Shown here one piece after another: positions 36,501 to 64,000 of a stretch of 64,000 nt of DNA (the stretch's first letter is position 1; the number at the start of each line of letters is the position of its first letter). The notes below the pieces were generated by a model. It was not told the DNA's origin. It worked only from the letters and a program-made list of their open reading frames with translations, and did no database searches. This DNA comes from Chrysoperla carnea (taxonomy: Eukaryota > Arthropoda > Insecta > Neuroptera > Chrysopidae). Location of the stretch: positions 14,584,935 through 14,648,934 of the forward strand of contig NC_058338.1 of assembly GCF_905475395.1 (NCBI RefSeq). Direction: 5' to 3'. The translations under genes were made by a program, and so were the position numbers.

Positions 36501-38267
36501 ATATTTTATAACATGCTGTAGTTAGAATACGTCAAACGAAATACTAATTAAAATTTTCTATTAGAATAAATTTGTTGATAAGATTCTTCATTACCTATAC
36601 ATAATATTTTAGTACAGACAGACAAAATTGGAATTGAATTATATCCTTTATAATTGAATATCAAAATTGAATTTACAAGATATTTATATGTTTTAGATCA
36701 AAATATCATCAATCTCCATCTTATATCTATCCATGTCATTCTCCAACCAAAATTATTGTTTCAACATTTTCAGTCATTCAAAATATTTCTCATTATATCA
36801 ACCCTTATAGCTCAGATGGTTATGGTGTAACCATTTCCGTTCGCAATATGCTTAGGGTAGCGGGTTCGATTCCCGCCGTCACAACAAAAATTAATTTAAT
36901 TAATAGTTGAGATGAGCTGGTGTAGTGCATGGTATATGCATGAAGGAGGTGCACTCAGCCTCTGAAATTGAGGAGCTGATAAATGAAATTATCAGCGGAA
37001 AGGTGGTAAAACACATATAATTATCACAATGAGGCTCTTTAGCCTAAGTGTGTCCTTCGTGGTCAGCTCATATAACTTAACCTAACCTATGATTCCCTAT
37101 TTTAATCAAAATTGGAAAATCTTGAAGGTCAAATTCAAAAATTGTAATTGAACTCCTATTTCATCACATCTTACTATTCAAATGTATTTATTGGCGCTCC
37201 CATATTTATCTAGAATTGTGAGCTATTTGATTAGTATTGTGGTATTATTTATTAGGATCCAGGTATTGTGAAGAGGTATTTATTAGAGCTGTATACGAGC
37301 GCAGCGAGCTCCACTGCCGATGGCTCCAGCTAGACTGAAGGCTGGAGGTTGAAGGCCAGGCCGAAGACTGAAAGCTGAAAGCCAGGCTAATGGCCGAAGA
37401 CCAGTCATAGGCCAGAAAAACAGGGTGAAAGATACAATTTATGACCTTTTCCATTTTATACGTCACTTTTTTAATCTTCATATATTTGCACCGAATGATA
37501 CTATATTACACCGGATCATATATTTAACTCAAACATAAGTCACTTCTTTTGATCGATTTCGCTATATCATCTTATTTTCACCTGTATTATTGGTACCTTC
37601 ATAGATTGATGTAGATAGGTATTATTCATTTTATACTAATTTCATATTTTTATTGTTTCAGGTAAAAGTTCGATGGAATGGTCAGTTAGAGCAAATATGC
37701 TGTTGGCGTGTTGCACCATGGGTTGAAGAATATCTATCGGAAGACGTCTATTATACAACATACTATGGTTTTCGTGTAATATTTGTCCATTTAATACCAT
37801 GTGTGTCGCTTGTAGTCTTAAATGGTCTTTTATTTCGAGCAATGCGTCAAGCACAGCGTAGACGTGAGATCTTATTTAAAGAGAATCGTAAATCAGAATG
37901 TAAAAAGTTACGTGAATCGAATTGTACAACATTAATGTTAATTGTTGTAGTGTCCGTGTTCTTATTGGTTGAAATACCATTAGCCGTTGTCACCATTTTA
38001 CATATAATATCATCAACAATACATGAATTTTTAAATTATACAATTGCAAATCGTTTAATATTATTTACAAATTTTTTTATAATTGTAAGTTATCCAATTA
38101 ATTTTGCAATATATTGTGGTATGTCACGACAATTTCGTGAAACATTTAAAGAACTATTTATTAGAGGTGTTGTCGTCGCAAAAACATCAAAGAATGGTAC
38201 AACTGGTTCCTCACGATATAGTTTAGTAAATGGACCACGAACATGTACGAATGAAACTGTTTTATAA
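21565..38267 (+). CDS. SPR: sex peptide receptor / MIP receptor (partial, last two coding exons)
   Basis: Class A GPCR that, in insects, answers myoinhibitory peptides (and sex peptide in Drosophila) at the plasma membrane of neurons. Coding exons seen are 21565-21762 (66 codons) and 37662-38267 (201 codons plus stop), joined in phase 0 at consensus GT/AG sites. The first exon gives helix 3 with [20 protein letters not shown] (QRY for DRY) and helix 4. The second gives ECL2, helix 5, the [16 protein letters not shown] loop, helix 6, helix 7 with SYPINFAIY, and the tail [12 protein letters not shown], which matches the Drosophila SPR tail closely. Helices 1-2 (about 160 residues) are not found in the 21.5 kb upstream. 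The 15.9 kb intron is crowded with transposons. The related receptor SPRR is the main alternative; the tail favours SPR. Confidence 0.93.
21914..22595 (-). mobile_element. Helitron, 682 bp, minus strand, in SPR intron
   Basis: On the minus strand it begins TCTCTATATCTCTATATACA, has a (GTTT)n run GTTTGTTTGTTTGTTTG near the 5' end, and ends GGGTAAAAGCTAG at 21914. Flanking bases are A and T, as expected. The middle has a GC-richer block around 22130-22260 and TCTTTCACCCTGTTTTTG, which recur inverted at 37270-37530. No protein. Confidence 0.75.
22683..22795 (+). repeat. two-unit tandem duplication, about 57 bp
   Basis: AAGAAAGTAGTGTTCCAAAT and its neighbour at 22683 repeat once with a few differences, both followed by TTTTTTTCAGTTT-like sequence. 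Intronic. Confidence 0.55.
22796..23515. other. intron sequence without recognised content
   Basis: No exon or repeat family identified within this part of the SPR intron. Confidence 0.45.
23516..24047 (+). repeat. repeat A, copy A7 (plus)
   Basis: Near full length, with GTAAAAACATACAATTGACT at the start, a GGTCGGGCGGACGGACGGAC block inside and ATACATGGTATAATA at the end. Intronic to SPR. Confidence 0.8.
24048..25049. other. intron sequence without recognised content
   Basis: AT-rich. The minus open frame at 24358-24597 resembles no family I know. Confidence 0.45.
25050..25430 (+). repeat. repeat B, plus copy
   Basis: It starts with GTGTGTGTGTGTCTGTCTG, then GGCATCGTAGCGCCTAAACG, and continues as the reverse complement of 7357-7800 and 28490-28905 to CAATTTCAATTAAAATAT. 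Confidence 0.7.
25431..26245. other. intron sequence without recognised content
   Basis: The open frame 25772-26083 is lysine- and phenylalanine-rich AT noise; no family resemblance. Confidence 0.45.
26246..26643. mobile_element. 398-bp MITE with CAGGGCGTTCTG ends
   Basis: Terminal inverted repeats of about 75 bp start CAGGGCGTTCTGTTATTAAC, flanked by TA at 26244-26245 and 26644-26645. The arms are almost identical, implying a young insertion. A diverged half of the same family lies at 34060-34160. Probably a Tc1/mariner-type MITE. Confidence 0.85.
26644..27215. other. intron sequence without recognised content
   Basis: AT-rich, no elements identified. Confidence 0.45.
27216..27938 (-). mobile_element. 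Helitron with internal helicase remnant, 723 bp
   Basis: On the minus strand it begins TCTATATATATAAGCGATTT and ends GAGTAACAGCTAG, between A and T. Close to the 5' end is a CTCATCACGAAATCTTCCAA block typical of this group. Inside is the C-terminal part of a Pif1-like helicase. It is therefore an internally deleted copy of an autonomous Helitron, which ties the protein to the termini seen on the non-autonomous copy at 3167-3640. Confidence 0.85.
27228..27835 (-). pseudogene. Helitron Pif1-like DNA helicase, C-terminal remnant
   Basis: Minus-strand translation gives family landmarks in order: [55 protein letters not shown], then after a stop and frame changes the FIPRIPLIP block, a broken stretch that should hold the Q-rich helicase motif VI region, and finally [20 protein letters not shown] with TKNVIY. 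The order fits Rep/helicase proteins of animal Helitrons. Several stops lie between about 27440 and 27560. The Rep domain and Walker motifs are absent, so it cannot move anything itself. Confidence 0.85.
27939..28489. other. intron sequence without recognised content
   Basis: AT-rich; no element identified. Confidence 0.4.
28490..28905 (-). repeat. repeat B, minus copy
   Basis: Matches 7357-7760 in the same orientation: ACTCCTTCTTAAATCAATAT, then GGACATCAGATGAGATGAAA, then CATAGCTAAGAACACTCTCC. It is interrupted by small indels. Confidence 0.7.
28906..29761. other. intron sequence without recognised content
   Basis: Nothing beyond a short (CAATT)n run near 29306. Confidence 0.45.
29762..30304 (+). 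repeat. repeat A, copy A8 (plus), full length
   Basis: Starts AAGTGAAAACAAACAATTGA, holds (GACG)n GACGGACGGACGGACGGACA, and ends TATACATGGTATAATA. The open frames at 29618-29854 and 30198-30563 that overlap it are not genes. Confidence 0.85.
30305..30814. other. intron sequence without recognised content
   Basis: No element identified. Confidence 0.4.
30815..30981 (-). mobile_element. Helitron 5' end fragment, minus strand
   Basis: On the minus strand it starts TCTCTTTCTCCATATAATAT, then GCGAAAGTAAGAATG and a (GTTT)n run, the same start as the 682-bp Helitron at 21914-22595, to which it aligns over about 160 bp. The 3' end is not found. Confidence 0.65.
30985..31250 (+). pseudogene. DUF4817-type helix-turn-helix fragment of a transposon
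   Basis: The plus strand reads [14 protein letters not shown] and then, one frame over, [20 protein letters not shown]. Together they match the order of the DUF4817 domain (T-x-E-Y-x-D-I-H-F then YG...N-A-R-A...Y-x-x-F-P), an N-terminal helix-turn-helix found in many arthropod transposon-like proteins. The rest is shifted and full of stops. It is a dead remnant abutting the Helitron fragment; I do not know which transposon donated it. Confidence 0.65.
31295..31548. mobile_element. 254-bp MITE with ATGGTGGGTC ends
   Basis: Terminal inverted repeats start ATGGTGGGTCCACACG and end GACCCACCAT; the interior arms pair weakly over about 120 bp (CAGACTTC/AAGTCTGA words). The duplication is unclear, probably TA. 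The minus open frame 31277-31519 across it is spurious. Confidence 0.65.
31549..32165. other. intron sequence without recognised content
   Basis: Contains a small palindrome near 31765-31785 (CACCGTCCTTG...AAGAACGGTG). Nothing else. Confidence 0.4.
32166..32668. mobile_element. foldback element with AAAACCGACTT ends, split by a Helitron
   Basis: The left end AAAACCGACTTCAAAAG pairs with the right end CTTTTTAAGTCGGTTTT. Arms are about 115 bp. The left arm is broken at 32199-32461 by a Helitron. With that removed, GTAAAACTTTTCCAAAA continues to TAAATTAATATGCACTA and pairs with the right arm. A second inner hairpin TAGTCGGTGTTT...ACACCGACT marks the loop. Confidence 0.8.
32199..32461 (+). mobile_element. 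non-autonomous Helitron, 263 bp
   Basis: It begins TCACTACATAGTATAAAACA and ends GCGAAGCCGGGGCGGGTCGCTAG, here given as CCGGGGCGGGTCGCTAG, with the GC-rich hairpin expected before CTAG. Flanks are A (32198) and T (32462). The symmetry of the host foldback element confirms both borders. Confidence 0.85.
32669..33132. other. intron sequence without recognised content
   Basis: AT-rich, with GAAATCGGTTA and GAAGTCGGTTAAAAA words suggesting a diverged relative of the preceding foldback element. No exon. Confidence 0.4.
33133..33415. mobile_element. 283-bp MITE with CAGTGTGATCA ends
   Basis: The element starts CAGTGTGATCATTTCAAA and ends TTTGATCACACTG, flanked by TA on each side. This is the pattern of Tc1/mariner-type MITEs. 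No coding capacity. Confidence 0.8.
33416..34059. other. intron sequence without recognised content
   Basis: No element identified. Confidence 0.4.
34060..34160 (+). mobile_element. fragment of the CAGGGCGTTCTG MITE
   Basis: GCCTCAGATCGAAAATTTTA, TTTTCGTTCGTCTTTATAAG and AGAACACCCTGTA are diverged versions of the right arm of the MITE at 26246-26643. The left arm is missing. Confidence 0.65.
34161..34646. other. intron sequence without recognised content
   Basis: No element identified. Confidence 0.4.
34647..34705 (+). mobile_element. SINE 3' fragment
   Basis: CTCTATAGCCTAAGTGTTTC followed by CTTTGTGAACAGACAATATA and a degenerate CCTAA-like tail match the 3' end of the SINEs at 21262 and 36805. 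Confidence 0.65.
34706..35440. other. intron sequence without recognised content
   Basis: No element identified. Confidence 0.4.
35441..35598. mobile_element. 158-bp palindromic MITE
   Basis: Two arms of about 68 bp form an almost perfect hairpin: left GGGGTGTATTCCGAAATATA, right TATATTTCGGAATACATCC, with a short AT-rich loop near 35509-35530. A strong foldback structure with no coding content; target duplication not clear. Confidence 0.8.
35599..36804. other. intron sequence without recognised content
   Basis: Contains TTATTTACCGG and its inverse around 36014-36054. Otherwise nothing. Confidence 0.4.
36805..37090 (+). mobile_element. tRNA-derived SINE, fullest copy
   Basis: The head is tRNA-like: A box TAGCTCAGATGG at 36808-36819 and B box GGTTCGATTCC at 36863-36873. 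The body has GCTGGTGTAGTGCAT, GCACTCAGCCTCTGAAATT, GTGGTAAAACACA and GCCTAAGTGTGTCCTTCGTG, and the tail is TTAACCTAACCTA. Two other copies in this window share the body. It is a pol III retroposon, not a functional tRNA: no acceptor stem closes. Confidence 0.85.
37270..37530 (+). repeat. inverted partner of the 21914-22595 Helitron interior
   Basis: GAGCGCAGCGAGCT, a run of GGC(C/T)GAAG-like words, CAGGGTGAAAGATACAATTT and ACCTTTTCCATTTTATACG match the reverse complement of about 22000-22285. No Helitron termini were found around it. The minus open frame here is spurious. Confidence 0.6.
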
Positions 38268-45257: not shown

Positions 45258-48200
45258 ATGAGCTTTTTCAACAAGAGTAAGTATAATTTTATTGTTAAGA
45301 AATTAAATACGAACACGAGTAAATCGACAAAAGCCAAGGAAAAAATTTGTAGACTATATGGATGTGCTATCCACTAATTTTTTGTCAAATTTTTATTTTT
45401 CGTGGTAGTTATTCGTTTATATTAGCCTTTATTTTGTGATATTTGGATGCCCCCCCCCCCCAATACTTTTTTGCAATAATCGGTTCACTTGATATCAATT
45501 GTAACCTAGTAGATAATTTAATTCCTTCTCTTTTTATGGTTATGGTTAATTTCTTGTATATATTTATTTGCAGTTCCTGTTGCATCTTTAAAAAGTATTT
45601 TTTTAATATTATGCATTGGCACCATCATATCATTACTAATATTATATGCAAATTATCGGAAGGTGGCTTATGAAAGAGGTAACTAAAATTATACGATGTT
45701 AGCCAGAAAATATAAGCTATGATTAACTGTGAGGATAATACTATTGCTTAGACCCTATATTATCAAAAAAAATCGAATTTTTTAACTTTATGACGTCATC
45801 AGATTTAAAAATATTTAATTTTGCACTATCACATCCAAATTTTATCCAATTTTGATAAAACAAATATGTATTCCTACTTAATTTGGGTCATACTTTTCAA
45901 ATTTGTGATCAAAATTAACCAAGCTCTAATAGATTTCGAGAATATGGAGTCCTGATCCCGGAATTTAGAACATTAGTGATAGCTAACAAAAAATTGATAT
46001 CACAGCTGAAAAGAATGGCCCAAAATTAGTGGGTTTCAAATAAAATTCCAATAAGATTGGATCAAATTTGCCTGTGTTATCAAAAAAATCAAATTTTTGA
46101 ACTTTATGACGTCATCAAAATCCAAAAAATTTAATTTTGCTCTATCACATTCAAATTTTATCCAATTTTGATAAACCAAGTATGTAATCCTACTAAATTT
46201 GGGTCATACTTTTCAAATTTGTCATCAAAATTAACCTAGCTCTAATAGATTTCAACAATATTGAGTCCTGGTCCCAGAATTGAGCACATAGGTGATAGCT
46301 ACCGATAAACTGATATTACAGCTGAAAAGTATGACCCAAAGTTAGTGGGTTTCAAATAAAATTCCAATAAGATCGGATCAAATTTGCCTGTGTTATCAAA
46401 AAAATCGAATTTTTTAACTTGATGACGTCATCAAAATCCAAAATATTTAATTTTGCTTTATCACATCCAGATTTTATCCGATTTTGATAAACCAAGTATG
46501 TAATCCTACTTAATTTGGGTCATACTTTTCAAATTTGTTATCAAAATTAACCCAGCTCTAATAGGATTCAAGAATGTTATTTTATTTTTTTTGTAGATAA
46601 AAGAATAACATACTACAGTAAGTAAAGTAAATCCACACATTTTTCTACGAAAAGGACCCCGCAATATTAGATAGAAAAATAGCTTTCAGTGAAACTTTTT
46701 CTAACCCACTTTTTTCTAAAATGTTCTTTGGACCATTTAGATCAAAAGCTCTCACGGTCACAAAAATTTTTAATGAGTAGTTTTCGAGCTACGGGCGATC
46801 AAAGCTACACAACATATATTTATAATACCTATATCACTAAGCAAATGGCTTTCTGTAAAACTTTTTCAAACCGCCCGCAAAATAATCTTGGGGTCGTTCT
46901 GATTAAAAAGCTCTTGCGGCCACGGGTTGTGAAACAGTAAGAAATTTTCTACCTGATGCAACAAGGGCGTCCGTTACTCCTGGGACATCAAAATATTTTT
47001 TTTTTCATTTTCCTTTAACACTGGGACAAGTGATTGTAAAAACAGCATAGTGGTTCATCAGATATCCCAGATTTAATTTTGAAATAATAAAAAACATTAT
47101 AGATCCTTTATTTCGTAAAAGTATAAAATTTGTTAATAATTTTATTGTACTCAACAGGAATACGTCTTGACAAACATCGTAAAATGTATGTAAATGCAAT
47201 AAAACGAATTATATTTAAAATAAATGCTTTAAACAAAATTTACAATGCAGAAATATTTGGTAGCCAATTTCAATATATAATTGTAATATTAGTTAAAAAT
47301 AATATAAAATATTTAAACATACTAATTAATAATTTAAGTAATGTGAAAAATATCAAAAATGTTTTATTAATATTTTCACATACGTATTACAATCCGAACA
47401 TTATGAAATTAATAAGAAAAATTAATTATACAAGATACACGCAAATTTTTTATCCATTTCCATTACAATTACAATACAAATTTCCAAGTTCAAATTTATC
47501 GAGTGAATGCCCTGGATTGAATTTAGTGTAAGTAATTTTTTGTTTTTCCATTTTTTAGCATAGTCAAAGTCTAATAGCCAGTGGCGGATTTAGACTTCCT
47601 ATGTTTACTTTATGACGTCATTAGAATCCAAAAAATTTAATTTTACTCTATCACATCCAAATTTTATCCAATTTTGATAAACAAAGTATGTAATCCTACT
47701 AAATTTCGGTCATACTTTTCAAATTTGTGATTAAAATTAACCTACATCTAATAGATTTTAAGATTATGGAGTCCTGGTCCCGGAATTAATCACAAAAGTG
47801 ATCGCTAGAGAAAATTGACATCACAGCTGAAAAATATGGCCCAAAATTAGTGGGTTTCAAAAAAAATTCCAATGAAATCGGATCAAATTTGCCTTTGTTA
47901 TCAAAAAAATCGAATTTTTTAACTTTATGACGTCATCAGAATCCAAAAAATTTAGTTTTGCTCTATCACATCCAAATTTTATCTAATTTTGATAAACAAA
48001 GTCTGTAAACCTACTAAATTTAGTTCATACTTTTCAAATTTGTGATTAAAATTAACCTACATCTAATAGATTTTAAGATTATGGAGTCCTGGTCCCGGAA
48101 TTAATCACAAAAGTGATCGCTAGAGAAAATTGACATCACAGCTGAAAAATATGGCCCAAAATTAGTGGGTTTCAAAAAAAATTCCAATGAAATCGGATCA

Positions 48201-51200
48201 AATTTGCCTTTGTTATCAAAAAAATCGAATTTTTTAACTTTATGACGTCATCAGAATCCAAAAAATTTAGTTTTGCTCTATCACATCCAAATTTTATCTA
48301 ATTTTGATAAACAAAGTCTGTAAACCTACTAAATTTAGTTCATACTTTTCAAATTTATGATCAAAATTAACCTAGCTTTAATAAATTTCAAGAATATGGA
48401 GTCCTGGTCCCGGAATTAAGCACATAAGTGACAGCTAGTGCAAAACTGATTTCACAGTTAACAAGAATGGCCTAAAATTAGTGGGTTTCAAAAAAAATTC
48501 CAATAAGATCGGATCAAATTTGCCTTTGTTATTAAAAAAAAAGAATTTTTTAACTTTATGACGTCATCAAAATCCAAAAAATTTAATTTTGCTCTATCCC
48601 ATCAAAATTTTATCCAATTTTGATAAACCAAGTATGTAATCCTACTAAATTTGATCCGCATAGAAATGCTGCCAGTTGATTAGTTAATCTGCCTTGGGCC
48701 GTGCCAACACATCAGCTTAAGCTAATCAGCTAGACTGGATTAAATCTCAGAACACACGCATAATTTTTTCCTCTAGGCGAAATGAAAAGACAAACAAATG
48801 CCATCACATATTATTTCATGATGAAAATTTTACATATCACCAATCAAATTTAACCGAAGATAAAAATCATTGGTTGTGGACTGTACATTTTGTTTTTGAT
48901 AAAATTAATTATACATCCAATTGGAATCAATCAATTTTGTATTTAAAAGAAAACAATTATGTTTCCAAAGATATTGTCGAAGTTTGGAAATATCTTGATC
49001 AATTCGTTGAAAACAAATATAATGAAACGAAAGAATTGCAGCATAGAATAATTGAATTTGGCGTTAATGCGGACACAGCAATCGGAAAGGTATACATATA
49101 TTGTTTTATTACAAATAATGAAAAAATTTGAAAAAAATATTTTATATGAATTCATTTTAAAACGAGTAAAGTAGTTTAATATTAAAAGCCAAACCAATTT
49201 CAACATTAACTTTGTTCGATGGTTCGTATAATTGATATTACACATAGGTTCACTTCATAGTCGACTATGCATACATACAATAGGTAAATTAGGCAATCGA
49301 CTAGGGAGTTAGAATGGCATAGCGATACTAGTGCTCACGGCGGAGTAAGATAAGTACATTATGATCGTGAACTAATCAACCCAAATATATTCATATTAAT
49401 GAATAATGTTAAAAATAAGAGTAACTCGATTAAAAAAAGTTTTTCTGTAGGAGATATTTTGTCGGGAAAACGAAAGAAAATAGCCATTGAAATTTAGTTT
49501 GATAGATAAAAATGAAAATAATTAATTGACAGAATTAACTGTTGAAATACCGTATATATAGACATGTGTTGAATATCAGTATTTGTATTAAGTTTTAGAA
49601 AACAAAAAATTTCTTCCCCCAAAATTCCGATTTTTTATTTCTTGGGTTTCTAGGATGAATCTAGAATTTTCTTCGTTATTCAGAATCAACATAGTTTTAA
49701 ATAAATTGCATATTTTATAATTTTCAGATGTACAATTCAGGGAACATCGTAAAAGCTTTGAGTTATTTATATCAAAACCGACGAATAAAGGTAGGTACAG
49801 CCTATAATGTAGGGACGACTAATTATTTCTCAAAATATAGCTACCCGGTAAACTCCGTCCATTGAACATGAGTAATTTTCGCATGGAAAATTTGTGCAGG
49901 ACCTCGTTTAAAAAATGCTCCCAAACGTAAAAGTGCAGGTTGTCGATAAGTAATCCGGTAGGATATTGTTTAAACTAATTTTTTTTTAAAGCTAATTTTT
50001 CCGGGGAGTTGCGTTGCGGTAAATGAAGTTTTTCGAACTTTTATGTTAATTTGACTTTATTTCGAATCGATTGATGAAAATCCCAACTTCCTAGCATGTA
50101 TAGAACAGAAAATGGTTATTTTTGGGTGGTTTTACGCGTGCTCTCTTGGCAATTAACAACCAAGCACTTAAAATGCAATCAGGCAAAAAACTTTTGCAGG
50201 ACAAAACTCGTAAAAATCGCTTCTTCACACATTTGCAACCCATAAATCGTCGCTGCTTTTTGTTTTACAATAACTATAATCAATGTTTTTTACAGGGGAA
50301 CGTTTATGATAAGGAATGGAAATGGGATTCATCTCATGATAGTATTGCCATTAACCGAAAATTATGGCATAAAATGCTGAAATGTAACGTCTATCATTAT
50401 TGCTTCTTTGATTCAATCACCTGGTATGGATCATTACAGCATTTATGTGAAAAATGTTATTTGAAAATACGAGTATTAACATTAGCAGCGCCACAAGTTT
50501 ACGCTCTTAAACTATGGTAAAAGTATAAAAATAAAAATGTCATATCTTCGAATGATTTCAAAATATATATATACGGAAAATGCACCCACATATACTTAAT
50601 CACATCTCGTATTGTTCCATAAACAGGTTAGCTCTTCAAATTTTGCACACATTTTTTTTATTATTTGCAAATTCGAATACTTTTTATCAAATTCCATCGG
50701 AAAGTGTGGGTAAAAATGACAGCGTTGTCCTAATTCTACCTTGGATAATAATATCCAAATCGATCTCTCTTTCGGAGCTTTCAGTGGTAATCGCGAATCG
50801 TGAATATGTAAGAATACAAAATTTAAAGTCATTCGAAAATATTAATTTTACAGCAGCATTCTCGGTGACAAAATAAAGCTAAATAAATTAACGCTCTCGG
50901 TAATTTTCGTCGGCAGAATAAAATATTAAAGATTAGACACATGGAAACTCTGACGATCTAACACGATCCACGTAAGGACGATCCACGTAAATTTCCAAAT
51001 TCAAGTATTTTCTCTGACAATATTATTTTGCAAAAGTAAATAAACGTTTCCAATGTACAAAATATCGACTACAGACTGCAGTCTTTACCAGAAGGAATAC
51101 TGTGTTCAGATTTTCCTCTCACAATGATAATAGAAAAAAGTCTTCCACAGCACATTGATTTGATTGACGAAAATATTTCTGAATAAGCATATAGTTTGAC

Positions 51201-52612: not shown

Positions 52613-56491
<3,879 letters not shown>

Positions 56492-57166
56492 TTTTAACAA
56501 TAATGACAGGTCATGTTTTTTTTAAACTTTGCTCTCTCATGTTTACCTACTTTCAAAGTAAACAATCAGCAATGTCATCTTTTAATTACTATTAAAAATT
56601 GTACCGACTGAGTAATTATGATATCAAAAAAACTAAAAATTCTCAATTTAAGATAATTTTCATCTAGGAAGCAAGTTCGGTTATTATAAAATTAATATTT
56701 CATAAAAAGCCAAAAAGAGTTCCCGCCTTTTAAATCAAAATTATTAAAAAATCAAAACCAACGAAAAAAGGCGGCAAAATAAAAAATTAGACATCTTCTA
56801 TATTCGTTCTTTCAAATGGCTAACATTCCTTTTAAAAGTACAGAAAATTCATCTAAAAAACATTATAAATATTTGATTACTCTATCCTCAAATAATTATT
56901 TATAATTATTTATTGTTGGTTTATCTTTATAAAAAGGAAAACTTCGTTCAAACCGGCCATGTTGACTTAAAACGTCATGTAAACGGAAATGACACATGAA
57001 AAAGGCGCCAAATAAAAACTAGATTTTTATTAATATTTATTTTTAAATTGTATAAAAGCTAGAAAACAAATATTAAATTTACATAAACAAATATAATTTT
57101 ATAAAAATTTATGAAAATTATACAAGAAATTGAAAATATTTGGTTCACGAAAATATTTCAAACAAC
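56492..57166. promoter_or_regulatory. divergent PEX6 / DCPS promoter region
   Basis: The 675 bp between the two start codons must serve both strands. It holds three E2F-like words: TTCCCGCC at 56720-56727, GGCGGCAAAA at about 56771-56780 and GGCGCCAAA at 57004-57012. That they are used is inference. No TATA box in a defensible place. Confidence 0.5.
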
Positions 57167-59246
57167 ATGGCGACATCTGATGTAAATGACGCTCCTGCTT
57201 CTAAGAAAATTAAATTAGATGATAAAAATGGTGATAAAATAAATGATGAACATGATGATAACTTAGTGAAAACATTATCAGACTTTAAATTAGAAAAAAT
57301 TTTATCAAATAATAGTAATCGTAAAACCATATGTATTCAAGGTTCATTCCCTGGTAAAGATGGTATAGCGTTACTAATATTTGAGAAAAAATCATTTACT
57401 GATACAGAATTTAATAACGATGATGGTTATTTAACTGAAAACAGTGTTTTAAAATATGTGTTTAAAAACGATGTGTATTACAGTTACGAATGTTTTCCAG
57501 ATCTTGTGTTAAGTGGTAAGTTTTAGCATTTGTGTTTTTCATGTTGATTTTTAGAGTGTTAAATTACGTAGTTTATTTTTAGGTTTGAAAACAACTATAA
57601 TTTATCCAGCGACTGAAAAACATATTCAAAAATTTTCTCAACAAAATATCCATTTAGTTAACGAAACTGTTGATTTGTATAATAAAATTACGTTACCTCA
57701 TATTCAAAAAGAACAATTTTCGTTAGACGTAAGTTTAGATAGGCATATGGTTTTGAAAAGTTATTAATACCTAATTATCAAAATTTTTGTTTTGTTTCAG
57801 TGGGTGTATAATATTTTAGATCATAAATCTGAATCGGAACGAATTGTTTTTGAAGATTCTGATCCGAATATAGGATTTATTTTACTTCCCGATTTAAAAT
57901 GGGATGGGAAAACATTAGAAACATTGTATTTGGTTGGAATTGTACATTGCAAGGGGTTGAAATCATTACGTGATTTAAATGATTCTCATCTACCGCTGTT
58001 ACGAAATATTTATACCAAAGGAGTGGTAAGTTTATTAACATCTTTCTTAAATAATTACATAATTGTATACAAATAACTAGTTTTTTAGAGTAGGAAAATT
58101 AGTTTTAAGATTACTGATTCCAGATTTTTTCGCCTTCGCGAATAGGGAATATTCATGAAATTTAAATTTGGTTCAAATATTTTTCTTCCGGAACTTTAAT
58201 GACTGGACATTTCAACTAAACCATTATTTTAGTAATTAATATCTTTTTAATTACTTAAAATTAATTAATAAAAGTACAAATTCAGTGAGGGCATTTAAAA
58301 ATTTCTAAAACGGAAATTCAAATTTTTATACGGACGTGACATCATAGTACGGGCTTGTCAAATTTGTTGACATACTGTATGATATTAATTACTTACATTT
58401 TATATGGTATTTCATTAAACTATACTATTCTACGGCTTTTTATTAGAAAACTTAATAGTGACGAGTGTAAATTCTGTGTTGTAAATTCATTTTTTTATAG
58501 TGTAAATTATACATTGAACTGTCACCAATTGACAGATCACGTACTTATACGTCATCAACAGAGAGCGACAAAAAACTGCGTTTAAATATCTCAAAATTAT
58601 AAAGTATTTTAAATATTTGTTTACTCTTAAATACAGCATTTTTAAACAGTATTTATATTTTTTACTTTGTTATAACGGTGTAAGCAATGAATTAAAAATA
58701 TTAAAAAAATACATGAATATTCCCTATTATTCAATTTACTTTTTGTCATTTCTGTTTAACGATTGGAGGGATCTTAACATACTTTTATGTTTAAACTGAA
58801 AGAAACCGAGGTCTATTCCTTTCTTCGTTGTAACTGCCGAGATTTATGAATCTAAATTTATATCGTAGCTTCGCATCGGTCAGTTTTAACAGTAAACGTA
58901 GTTTTACAACTTTTGATAATAAAAACAAAATTAAACTTGTAATTGATATATTAATTTGTTCCAGAAAGCAATTGAAGACACATATAATCTTCCAGCATCG
59001 CAGCTAAGAATTTATTTACATTATCAACCATCATTTTATCATTTACATGTCCATTTTACATATTTAAAATATGACGCCCCCGGAATATTTACAGAAAAAT
59101 CGCATTTGTTAACCAACGTTATAAGTAACATTGAATTAATTGGTGATTATTATCAACGTGTTACTCTACCATTTGTTGTACGTGAAAACGATAATTTATT
59201 TAAAAAATTTGAAACTGAAAAAATATTAAAACCATGTCCGAATTAA
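57167..59246 (+). CDS. DCPS: scavenger mRNA-decapping enzyme DcpS
   Basis: HIT-family pyrophosphatase that hydrolyses m7GpppN left after 3'-5' mRNA decay, releasing m7GMP, in cytoplasm and nucleus. Exons 57167-57515, 57583-57728, 57801-58025, 58965-59246 give 333 residues (human 337). An N-terminal lysine-rich KKIKLDD may be nuclear-localising. Landmarks: TTIIYPATEKHIQKF, NKITLPHI, WVYNILDHKSESERIVFE, GFILLPDLKWD, LKSLRDLNDSHLPLLRNI, and the HIT motif HLHVH at 266-270 with catalytic His268. ATG 57167 chosen for its AACAACATGG context; an upstream in-frame extension lacks an ATG. Its last 13 bases, stop included, overlap the UBE3D start in another frame. The 939-bp third intron holds no recognised element. 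Confidence 0.95.
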
Positions 59247-60421
59247 TAAATTCACTTTTAATTGAATTGCGTCCACGATTACAATCGTGTAATGTATTTT
59301 TGAAACCGTTAAACGGCCTAAATATCGATTCAACAACATTCAAAATAAAATTACGTTCAAATTCAATCTTATTTTTATATAAAAATCCATCAAACAATTA
59401 TCAGATATGTGAGACAATTGAAATCGATAAGAATTATCAATTACTTCCAAAAAGTATGTCAAGTTTAATCGTCGATAATAAATACGTTTCGTTTCGGGTT
59501 ACAACTAAAACGTTAAATCAATTCGGTAGTTTTAAAACTGAAATATTACAAGTAAATGATGCCTCAAAGTTACCTAGTGCAATACCGCCATGCCAATTTG
59601 AGACAATCAAAATGGCTGAGCATTCTTTAGAATGCCGTAATTGTACAAATCAATTATTAAATAGGTCAATACAATTTCGACGTATTTTACCATTACCAAG
59701 TGAAAATTGTAATCCTAGCGATTGGTTTTGTCATAAATCTGAAACAACAAATGATGTTTCTTCGTCGTTACAACCAAAATTTGATGAAATGTTTTATAAT
59801 TTTTGTAGTTTTACGATTAATTCCACAATTTTAAATGAGAAAGCAATGTATTTTGATAAAGTGATTTTTTGTAAACGATGTTTAGCTTGGTTAGGTACGA
59901 ATATTAATGGGCAAATTTTTTTATGGGATTGTACGGTCCATTTTGTAAAAAATATTGAAACTAAATTAAATTCGATTCAAATTACGGATATGAATTTAAA
60001 TTTGAATGCATTTCATCAATCAATTTTGAATTTAATTAATGAAACCATTGGGATTATTTGTAAAATTCTAATTGAATGCCATGTGACAGTCGATAAAACA
60101 GAATATATTTTGCTATGGGTATTAGATCGACGACTAGATGTAGCGTTATTTGAAAATTCACCTCATCAACGTGTAGAACATAAACGTTTACGATTAATTG
60201 AGCTACAAAATTATGTTGCTATTAAATTATTATTTAAATATTGTACAAACGTTTCATCGGATGTACAATTATGGCAATCAGATATGAGTGTTCAAAATTT
60301 AAAAGTGGCATATCCAATGTTTAAAGATGGTCTAAAAGATTTAAATGATAAAGCTGAACTAATGTCAAATTGTTCAAATACCAATGATGATTTTACTATA
60401 TCGTATATAATTTTGGATTGA
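59234..60421 (+). CDS. UBE3D: HECT-type E3 ubiquitin ligase E3D (UBE2CBP)
   Basis: Single-exon frame of 395 residues, close to human UBE3D (about 389). The family binds the E2 UBE2C and cyclin B and can ubiquitylate substrates through a HECT-like C-terminal part. Visible landmarks: CRNC at 131-134, RRILPLPSENCNPSDWFCH (family: RVLPLPSENW...WCCH), CKRC plus LAWLG (family CKRCxxxLG), a DKTEYILLWVLDRR block, and LWQSDMSVQNL near the end (family LWESDISV). The start ATG at 59234 matches the family's N-terminus, so no upstream exon is needed. It lies inside DCPS exon 4, in a different frame, and the two stops are far apart. AATAAA at 60518-60523 supplies a poly(A) signal. No intron, unlike all its neighbours, which could mean retroposition or simple intron loss. 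Confidence 0.92.
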   Translation: MSELINSLLIELRPRLQSCNVFLKPLNGLNIDSTTFKIKLRSNSILFLYKNPSNNYQICETIEIDKNYQLLPKSMSSLIVDNKYVSFRVTTKTLNQFGSFKTEILQVNDASKLPSAIPPCQFETIKMAEHSLECRNCTNQLLNRSIQFRRILPLPSENCNPSDWFCHKSETTNDVSSSLQPKFDEMFYNFCSFTINSTILNEKAMYFDKVIFCKRCLAWLGTNINGQIFLWDCTVHFVKNIETKLNSIQITDMNLNLNAFHQSILNLINETIGIICKILIECHVTVDKTEYILLWVLDRRLDVALFENSPHQRVEHKRLRLIELQNYVAIKLLFKYCTNVSSDVQLWQSDMSVQNLKVAYPMFKDGLKDLNDKAELMSNCSNTNDDFTISYIILD

Positions 60422-61945
60422 AATTTTCAAATATAAGATGACTAAAATATTTTTTTAAAGTATCTTTTTTTATTTTTTTATACTTGTTGAATAATTTTAT
60501 TTGTACAAAATTTCTTGAATAAAAGTGAGAAGCGTATTTATTTTTAATTTTGTGTTTTATTTCAAAGTAAAAAATTTCCTGATTACAGAGCTAATTTCAT
60601 AAAATTTTGTACAGGTGTGCCATAAGTCCCTTTCCGATTTATATAATAACTTTTTGAAGTTATACTTCTTTTGGCGCGTTTGGATGAGAGTGAATTTGTG
60701 AGCTGCGCGCGCACGAACGACATGATGAAGTTAGCCACAGAATTGAAATAATAAAAAAATATATTTTCAACACTGAATATAGTTACAGTACTGAGTGTTC
60801 ATACTATACACTACATAGTACTTATATCCCTGAGCCAGTTCAAGTCGATGGTTGTGAAATATAGTATTCATATGAATAATTAATTTTGAATGAAAGAAGT
60901 ATAACTTCTAACGCGTGTACATAAGTACACACACTCTTTTTTTTTAATTTATGAATATAGTCGTTTTTATTTTGAGGAACGCCTGGTATAATAGAATACA
61001 CGATTAGAAAGTATTCAAAGACGATAACATTATTTTTAAAAAAGGGCCAGTCAGTGTTATCTGTTACATATTGGCCAGTAAACGAGATGTTATCAGAAAT
61101 GATTCACCGGCCTTTTAAAAATACCGTAATTCGAAATAATATCAACCATTACAATCTGTTGCAGATAATTCATTTCCATACGCTAGCTGTAGTGCTAAAT
61201 ATTTTTTCATTTTGGACGTAATTACACCCAATAGTTAATATTCATAGATTTTCCGGGAGTTTTCAATGAAAAAATAAAAGTTTCCTAATTTTCACCGCAG
61301 ATTTCAAGCAGATTCCGTACCCAATGCCGAAAACCGCATCTTTCTAGCATGACCCCATTTTTATGCAAAAGTGACTGTATCACCTGTATAATAAAGTGAT
61401 AAAATTTAATTTTTTTCGAAACGAATAAATCGGAGTTAATAATCCAAATGCTTGGCGAATTTTTCTAGGTAAATTTGCTTCGTAAAATTGCCTAATCTAT
61501 TTTTTCTCCTGTATTTAGATAGAATAGACATGAACGTTTATCATATACAGTTCTATTTTATAACACTAGAAAGTGCTCGTACGTTATGTTATTGTGAGAA
61601 TACCCACATAAAAAAAATCAATATTACATGCCTATTTCCTTATTAACGTGAAAAATAATATACACAAACCATCTGTTAACATTAACATTACAAAAGTGGT
61701 GAAAAATATGGAAAATATTATGTGGTTGTGAAAATTTTGTGTGAGTAATTTTCAATAAATCCAATAAATATTTTCAATTTTCAATTATATCAAGCTATAA
61801 ACTCCATGAATTCGTGGTTTGATTTAACAATCACATAAAATTAAACTTTAAAAATGAGACGTAATATCATGATTCTATTTGTTTTTTAGAGTCAAATTGA
61901 AAATAGTGAAATAATTTAAGTATATTTTACTTAATCCAATTCAAT
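60422..61945. other. UBE3D 3' region and FAM234 5' flank
   Basis: AATAAA at 60518-60523 is the likely UBE3D poly(A) signal. A MITE-like TACAGGTGTGCCATAAGTCC lies near 60612-60631 without a partner end that I can see. No gene. Confidence 0.45.
60518..60523 (+). terminator. poly(A) signal AATAAA after UBE3D
   Basis: Canonical hexamer 97 bases after the stop, followed by a T-rich stretch (TTTTTAATTTTGTGTTTTAT). If DCPS and UBE3D share one mRNA, this is also the 3' end of the DCPS message. Confidence 0.6.
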
Positions 61946-64000
61946 ATGGATTCGTATACCACAAAATTAGCTGTAAGGGATAGTTTAGATGATGAAGATT
62001 TAAGTGATGTTGACGATGAAGTCTTTATTAGGGATGGTAAAAATGGATCAAAGGTAAGGGCTGATTTCACTCTTTGTAATAAATAACAATAAGTTTATCG
62101 TCATTCTATTGATATTTTTTGTAAGTTTAAAATTTTTATAACGTTTTTAACTGATATTGCTTAATACCCGTAAAACGTCACTGTTATATACATTTAACAG
62201 AGCTAAGTATAAGATGTAAGAAGTATTTGAACTAGATATCGGTATGTTTTGAATTCAGTGGTGGTCTTAGGGTGGGTCGATTTGTTTATACCCCAATAAG
62301 TCATTGTAGGAATATAATTCAAAGGAGCGCTTCAAAAATTTTCGTATCGCCCTTAACAGTTGTCCCTGCTTGAATTGAATATAATTTTGTTGAGTATTTT
62401 AATATATATTCGGACAAACAGTGTTATGGAGAAAAAAAACTATCTAATCCGGAAAATAATGGCACTTTTTCGTATCCGACTTTTACGACATCGCAGTAGT
62501 TCTCTACAAAAATCATACAACAATGTAATGTATATTGCCTAAACATAAATAAATATGTGCAATTAATCTTTCAATGGGCCAACCATAAATTTTATTAAAA
62601 ATTACATGGACTCTCTAATAGAGAATTGTCTGGCTAATTGACGGCATTTTTTGGACTAGTTTTTTATCAAGGCCTTTTATGATAAAAAAATGGTAACGGG
62701 GGGGGGGGGGGGTAAATTTCTTTTCGTGTACACCATTATTAATTACAATATCGTTGGATGAATCTTGAAAAATAAATGTCTTACAATAACTTTGACTTTC
62801 AGGCGCATATTTTCATGGTACTAGCTAAAACATCAATTTTAGCTACATGAAAATTCTTAATAAAGAAATACTGAGCAAATTTTGGTTTGATAAACTTCAA
62901 ATTTCGATATTTATACAAAAATAGACCCAAAGTTGCCATTATTTCCCAACATGCATTGAATAATTCCCAATGTATATATTTTATTTGTAATATGTTCTAA
63001 GTAATTCATATAGATTTTATTTTGTAACAGCTTGTTGAAGACAGGGGCGTTAAACGGCCTCTTATGGCACCAAGAAGAAAAATTTGTAAAGAAGGTATTC
63101 GAAATCGACATGCACCATGTCGGATTAAATGTGTATTTTATTGTTATGCTGTAATTGCTTTAGTAGTTCTTTTAGGTAAGTAGTGTATGCCTAAAAACTT
63201 TAAAAAAACGTTCACGAATATTTTCAATTTTGCAATTTCGTAGGCTTAATTGGATTGACTGTGTTAATTGTATCTATATATCCTTTACCAATGGATCGGA
63301 TACGACCGTGGTTCTCTCAATCAGTACCAAGACCACTAAGTTCAAATTTATTAAGGCCATGCACATCATTTCGAGTTACAAATATGTGGAATGTTACAAT
63401 ACCAAAAAGGTCTACAGAATCCTCAATTCGTACTGTGGATGTAAATGAAGATGGTATTCAAGATATGATCCTCGGTTTTCAAACAGGTAGCTTTTCAAAT
63501 ATAATCACACACGGAGCGAATAGAAATTAACATAGCTAAATGCTCTAACTATAATAAACTGAAGAAATTTCATAATGTTAAATTTTTTAATTTAGAGAGC
63601 GGCCCTAAACCCTTTCCATATTTGTGCACAATGTTTTTTACAAAACAAGTAGTGTGTCAAGGTGGTGTAATGGCTTTAGATGGAAATAATGGGGAATTAT
63701 TATGGGAATACTGGACGGCACATCCCGTTTACTACATAGATTGTTCGGCAGATTTAACGGGTGATAAAATTATGGATTGTATTGCAATGGGCCGCGGAGG
63801 TGTAAGTTTTTAGTACAGAAAAGTGTTTTATGTGATTCTAATATTTGAATGTGGCTTTTTAGTTTTTGTGTGCTTTAGATGGGCGAAATGGCACATTAAT
63901 TTGGCAATTTACCAATAAAATTGTTAAAAATTCTATTATTGATTATTTAGTTGGACAATTGATCCATGATCAAGATGGTGATGGAGTTGTTGATGTGATT
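61946..64000 (+). CDS. FAM234-family (ITFG3-like) membrane protein, 5' part
   Basis: Exons 61946-62053, 63031-63175, 63244-63486, 63596-63801 and 63863 to beyond the window, in closed phase. The N-terminal tail is acidic (RDSLDDEDLSDVDDEVFIRD), followed by a basic stretch and one membrane segment (CVFYCYAVIALVVLLGLIGL and on to IVSIYPLP), so it is a type II protein. The ectodomain begins with FG-GAP-like repeats: DVNEDGIQDMILGF, DLTGDKIMDCIAMGRGG, ALDGRNGTLIWQ and HDQDGDGVVDVI, with Asp-rich loops that usually bind calcium in beta-propellers. Function of the family is not known. The start was taken at the first ATG preceding the acidic tail. The fourth donor could be read three bases either side; GTAAGT at 63802 keeps the GRGG-F-CALDG join seen in the family. 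Confidence 0.88.
62054..63030. other. first intron of the FAM234-family gene
   Basis: GT at 62054 and AG at 63029-63030. Contains a run of 15 G at 62698-62712. No repeats shared with the rest of the window. Open frames at 62360-62542 and 62911-63111 are spurious. Confidence 0.6.
63508..63528 (+). mobile_element. terminal fragment of the TATTCG MITE
   Basis: CACACACGGAGCGAATAG is almost the last 18 bp of the 391-bp MITE (CACGCACGGAGCGAATAG). It stands alone in the 109-bp third intron of the FAM234-family gene, 20 bases past the donor. Confidence 0.5.

Follow-up and report, generated by a model that had tools for sequence, protein, structure and literature searches.

How can two intact genes of Chrysoperla carnea both be expressed when the coding frame of the second begins before that of the first has closed? 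In the window (the whole stretch of DNA that was analysed, 64,000 nucleotides), DCPS and UBE3D lie on the plus strand in different frames, and the UBE3D ATG (59234-59236) begins 10 nt ahead of the DCPS stop codon, so that 13 bp are common to both frames and the stop-to-start distance is -13 nt. The overlap is real, and the coordinates, frames and strand of an earlier sequence-only reading were reproduced. That reading had offered a choice between one mRNA with reinitiation and a UBE3D transcript that starts inside DCPS, and this choice is upheld here, the sequence leaving little room for the other routes. Of the two, we lean toward the shared mRNA.

Structure of the gene pair

The spliced product of the four DCPS coding exons (Table 1) has 333 amino acids up to the stop, and its introns, all GT-AG, measure 67 nt (57516-57582), 72 nt (57729-57800) and 939 nt. 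The protein matches the Pfam profiles DcpS (positions 2-104 of 104, E 1.4e-22) and DcpS_C (positions 2-109 of 114, E 2e-29), and residues 37-323 match PDB chain 3bl7_A, a DcpS that we take to be the human one, with an E value of 3.1e-84 and 48% identity when aligned. The letters HLHVHF, the HxHxH motif, are identical in the aligned solved DcpS, and the protein has both the N-terminal DcpS domain and the C-terminal HIT domain. DCPS removes the cap remnants left by mRNA decay. Its frame closes with tandem in-frame stops (TAATAA, 59244-59249), and a third in-frame stop follows soon after.

UBE3D matches the HECT_2 profile (PF09814) over residues 11-382 of 395 and profile positions 1-362 of 369 (E 4.5e-37). 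Both proteins thus look full length against their families, as had been proposed, on the strength of the Pfam matches, which cover nearly the whole of each family profile, and, for DCPS, of the structure match as well. The UBE3D frame has an upstream stop at 59216-59218; the sole in-frame ATG before the domain match at 59264 is the one at 59234, and the next in-frame methionine is residue 75. When UBE3D was compared by sequence with the PDB at E values up to 10, no credible match was found, and the one chain at E 0.32 was an unrelated phosphatase. According to the accounts available, UBE3D is the homologue of yeast Ipa1/Yjr141w, a binder of the nuclease Ysh1/CPSF73 (PMC6436931), and mouse embryos and human cells that lack UBE3D contain less CPSF3/CPSF73 protein (PMC11904178). 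Lacewing UBE3D may likewise bind and stabilise CPSF73/CPSF3. The label "E3 ligase" given earlier undersells a protein described as a binder and stabiliser of CPSF73/CPSF3 (PMC6436931, PMC11904178).

In the DNA, the DCPS match stops at 59213 and the UBE3D match starts at 59264, with 50 nt between them. By these alignments, then, no conserved residue is coded twice, and the overlap is made up of the final codons of the DCPS tail and the first codons of the UBE3D tail, both of them short and non-conserved. Nor is it a chance reading, since two intact conserved genes have their conserved parts only 50 nt apart in a genome whose mean gene length is given as 18,136 bp (PMC10116181). A search of the insect's own genome returned a single match for UBE3D and four for DCPS, one per exon, and hence no second copy of either gene was found. 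This single copy, and the intactness and conservation of the two frames to either side of the overlap, argue against an assembly error at 59220-59250 as the source of the overlap, as does the assembly's reported use of PacBio HiFi libraries (PMC10116181); such an error is unlikely, and we attach hardly any probability to it.

The neighbourhood was also surveyed. Pieces of an AAA-ATPase, presumably PEX6-like, lie on the minus strand within 53390-56521, divergent from DCPS; a 303-amino-acid open frame at 55610-56521 has no Pfam match and may be the start of that gene. The segment 56522-57515 was matched nowhere else in the genome. Further away there are pieces of MGAT2 (N-acetylglucosaminyltransferase II) on the plus strand (47127-50517), a GPCR piece (37605-38264) whose top Pfam match is 7TM_GPCR_Srw, and a run of 15 G (62698-62712) in AT-rich surroundings.

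Table 1. Coordinates of the features at the DCPS-UBE3D locus, counted from the first letter of the window.
Feature	Position	Strand	Basis
DCPS coding exon 1, ATG at 57167	57167-57515	+	translation, Pfam, own-genome match
DCPS coding exon 2	57583-57728	+	translation, own-genome match
DCPS coding exon 3	57801-58025	+	translation, own-genome match
DCPS intron 3, 939 nt, GT-AG	58026-58964	+	translation
MITE-like element in intron 3, 588 bp, 23-nt inverted ends	58141-58728	.	repeat and own-genome search
Non-MITE end of intron 3, 236 nt, matched only by itself in the genome; candidate internal-promoter site	58729-58964	+	own-genome search
DCPS coding exon 4, stop TAA 59244-59246, second in-frame TAA 59247-59249	58965-59246	+	translation
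Stretch without any AG, hence without an AG splice acceptor	59126-59402	+	sequence scan
Overlap of the coding frames, 13 bp	59234-59246	+	ORF coordinates
UBE3D, single coding exon, 395 amino acids, HECT_2 domain	59234-60421	+	translation, Pfam, own-genome match
AATAAA across the DCPS stop, candidate poly(A) signal for an mRNA of DCPS alone (weak, common hexamer)	59245-59250	+	sequence
AATAAA 97 nt past the UBE3D stop, likely UBE3D poly(A) signal	60518-60523	+	sequence

Routes to UBE3D limited by the sequence

The end of DCPS and the beginning of UBE3D share a stretch in which AG does not occur. It is the longest such run of the window on either strand, with 279 nt between successive AG starts against 216 for the runner-up. 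When both frames were resampled with synonymous codons, a run as long or longer arose in 8 of 3000 trials, and the exact stretch was AG-free in none of 3000 (mean 7.0 AG). As a control, 20 segments of 10 kb, taken at fixed places of the same genome and not picked for coding, were scanned on both strands; in these 400 kb, two runs reached or exceeded that length. Because the test was chosen after the sequence had been seen, we claim the run only as an exclusion of AG acceptors and not as a sign of selection.

As an exclusion, its consequences are direct. The exon that holds the UBE3D ATG must begin at 59126 or upstream, or else the mRNA must start within 59126-59233; and a UBE3D mRNA carries all of the DCPS exon 4 segment 59126-59233 unless it starts inside that segment. 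Skipping of DCPS exon 4 to a later UBE3D start, which had been named as a possible source of UBE3D, is thereby ruled out for AG acceptors, and a spliced leader that joins just downstream of 59246, which had been put forward as the observation that would overturn the overlap, is impossible with an AG acceptor for the same reason. An operon resolved by a spliced leader was rejected too, the closest upstream AG (59124-59125) being 109 nt ahead of the ATG and within DCPS exon 4. Leaky scanning is implausible because 20 further ATGs intervene between the DCPS and UBE3D starts in the spliced mRNA, which bears out the earlier doubt about it.

Alternative splicing could still give UBE3D a different leader by removing part of DCPS. 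The AGs of exon 4 up to 59124-59125 could serve as acceptors, and use of the one at 59093-59094 would leave the run to the UBE3D ATG free of upstream ATGs. However, with no AG in the stretch that follows, the joined exon would retain both the last part of DCPS exon 4 and the ATG at 59234, the HECT_2 match begins as early as 59264, and a first exon without the DCPS ATG would still be required, so that we give this route little credence.

Frameshift or readthrough might fuse DCPS with UBE3D in a single protein, and UBE3D is indeed in the -1 frame, which is open from 59219. Yet of the 13 in-frame heptamers that start within 59207-59243, not one fits the X XXY YYZ pattern of a -1 slippery site, and DCPS closes with its tandem TAATAA and the third stop soon after it. 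For want of such a heptamer and in view of the tandem stops, the fusion is unsupported and, in our judgement, scarcely credible.

Precedents for overlapping frames

Insect dicistronic genes with overlapping frames are already known. FlyBase, as summarised in one account (PMC4528330), lists 159 dicistronic loci in Drosophila. At 45 of them both proteins seem to come solely from a dicistronic mRNA, whereas a monocistronic mRNA exists for one of the genes at 69 loci and for each of the two at the other 45. The same account gives the spacing at polycistronic-only loci as -34 to +319 nt, a range within which the -13 nt of DCPS-UBE3D falls, and describes 18 gene pairs that overlap in different frames, mostly by less than 40 nt; of these 36 genes, 26 are carried on polycistronic transcripts (PMC4528330). 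These pairs resemble ours in that unrelated genes on one strand are set at a slightly negative distance with an overlap under 40 nt; they differ in that their shared mRNA rests on cDNA, RNA-seq and start-site data (PMC4528330), where that of DCPS-UBE3D is deduced from sequence.

A positive control is found in the lacewing genome itself. At one locus (L036:1212-1485) the stop of a ThiS-family frame is followed 4 nt away by the ATG of a MoaE-family frame, as identified with Pfam, and we take the two to be Mocs2A and Mocs2B. This conserved dicistronic pair is thus also present here, although its products are subunits of one enzyme, whereas the DCPS and UBE3D proteins are not known to interact. 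The Drosophila pair (Mocs2 and CG42503) has been cited as a highly conserved dicistronic example (PMC4528330).

Coupling of the two genes in one transcript had been put forward as something that would be new. The kind of arrangement is not new, as the Drosophila pairs indicate (PMC4528330), but DCPS and UBE3D as a gene pair were not found in searches of the open-access literature, and the pairing, predicted from sequence, seems to be new. The Drosophila Dcps gene is, we assume, CG2091. It has been placed immediately 3′ of sec8 (PMC1326216). Viral contigs were scanned with each of the two proteins and with an alignment of two DCPS sequences, and genome contigs with DCPS and that alignment; no relatives were returned, in collections that contain no relatives of this genome.

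A proposed model of shared transcription and reinitiation

We infer that DCPS-UBE3D is probably a dicistronic locus, in which one mRNA carries both frames and ribosomes reinitiate about 10 nt back from the DCPS stop. The shared-mRNA model is favoured because the spacing lies in the FlyBase polycistronic-only range, because overlaps of this size occur in Drosophila and because Mocs2A and Mocs2B are 4 nt apart in this genome. The primary transcript would begin upstream of DCPS, in the 0.65-kb region beside the divergent AAA-ATPase gene, and would run to a poly(A) site past UBE3D, so that the spliced mRNA contains both frames. DCPS would be translated in the normal way, and after the TAA at 59244 some ribosomes would move back by about 10 nt, across a stretch that is rich in A and has little structure, to restart at the AUG of UBE3D, so that UBE3D would be made in smaller amounts and coupled to DCPS. 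Forward rescanning is of no use for UBE3D, since the ATG that comes first after the end of DCPS (59292) belongs to another frame, and the restart must be about 10 nt back.

The surroundings of the UBE3D AUG are consistent with such a restart. It has an A at -3 and 28 A in the preceding 50 nt, its accessibility ranks 4th among the 58 AUGs of the modelled mRNA (a comparison looked at after the fact), and the junction does not fold better than shuffled sequence, 173 of 200 shuffles equalling or surpassing it (z = 1.04). A review describes coupled termination-reinitiation, with stop and start codons that overlap or lie near each other, for caliciviruses, pneumoviruses, victoriviruses, SART1 and some human mRNAs (PMC5972666). 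DCPS-UBE3D is like these systems in that the stop and restart codons overlap or lie within tens of nucleotides, and differs in that UGGGA, motif 1 of the calicivirus type of TURBS, is absent from 59034-59246. This absence matches several other reported cases of reinitiation, and a TURBS-like element is described as missing in five human mRNAs with coupled termination-reinitiation (PMC5972666). The leaky-scanning bicistronic mRNAs reported from green algae (PMC11291117) are also nuclear and also carry two frames, but the 20 intervening ATGs set our locus apart from them.

Several points speak against the favoured model. UGGGA is absent, only 45 of the 159 FlyBase loci seem to make both proteins solely from dicistronic mRNA (PMC4528330), reinitiation after a long frame is inefficient, the downstream product being reduced about 82-fold in the CASQ2 case that has been described (PMC5972666), and an initiator-like TCAGT at 58880, in the non-repetitive part of DCPS intron 3, makes an internal promoter possible.

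Intron 3 and a possible internal start

Intron 3 had been suggested as one possible site of a UBE3D promoter. Most of it, 588 of 939 nt, is occupied by an element whose 23-nt inverted ends are 91% complementary. A search of the own genome with 58100-58760 gave 40 scored matches out of 2480 candidates, namely the window's own and 39 others, and these 39 are 95-97% identical over nearly the whole element and lie on contigs C1 to C5. Among eight loci that were examined, one is the window's own and the other seven are 96-97% identical, one of them (L011) over 586 of the 588 bp; another (L012) has a second copy at 94%. We read the element as a recent, high-copy MITE-like insertion. Without it, intron 3 would measure 351 nt (58026-58140 and 58729-58964). 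Between 58026 and 59233, the only other TCAGT (58282) and the sole TATAAA (58598) are both inside the element, and TCAGT-type matches occur, by our estimate from base composition, at near the chance rate.

An internal promoter would nonetheless account for the locus in another way. UBE3D would have a start of its own, either within exon 4 or at the intron 3 end that is free of repeats, DCPS would end at a poly(A) site within the UBE3D frame, for example after the AATAAA at 59245, and the overlap would be mere crowding with no translational coupling. The 236 nt of non-repetitive intron provide a place for such a start, and from there exon 4 presents only two short upstream frames before the UBE3D ATG (ATG 59047, 6 codons, ending at 59067; ATG 59071, 13 codons, ending at 59112). 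Moreover, monocistronic mRNAs of downstream genes are reported to come usually from a downstream or external promoter (PMC4528330). Against this, there is no promoter signal beyond short initiator-like matches, and the AATAAA, which begins 11 nt downstream of the A of the UBE3D ATG, belongs to a hexamer found in this AT-rich window at the chance rate (302 seen, 297 expected). We regard this arrangement as a tenable second explanation, its chances being well short of even. The same hexamer bears on the claim that there is no room for a DCPS 3′ end, which was too strong: an mRNA for DCPS alone could have its 3′ end within UBE3D coding sequence, though with a hexamer that is no more frequent than chance.

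The shared mRNA and an internal start need not be opposed. Within the dicistronic model, UBE3D may have an extra, monocistronic mRNA alongside the shared one, begun at a secondary start within intron 3 or exon 4, as at many Drosophila dicistronic loci; this is quite possible, since only 45 of the 159 FlyBase loci seem to be solely dicistronic for both proteins.

The position of the AATAAA also allows a more speculative reading, a self-regulating switch dependent on CPSF73. Where CPSF73 is plentiful, cleavage after 59245 would give a DCPS-only mRNA; where it is scarce, transcription would read on, UBE3D would be made and CPSF73 restored, so that DCPS, acting on cap remnants, and UBE3D, acting in 3′ end formation, would be opposed through the choice of poly(A) site. 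We consider this switch very improbable and give it no more weight because the hexamer occurs at the chance rate.

Implications

Since UBE3D/Ipa1 supports CPSF73, what the pair joins is not decapping with a generic E3 ligase but two steps in the metabolism of mRNA. If one mRNA bears both frames, the locus would offer a small natural test case for reinitiation downstream of a long cellular frame, which is better known as a viral mechanism. The enzyme of the cap remnants and the protein that stabilises CPSF73, the nuclease of poly(A) sites, would then be made in a linked ratio in this insect.
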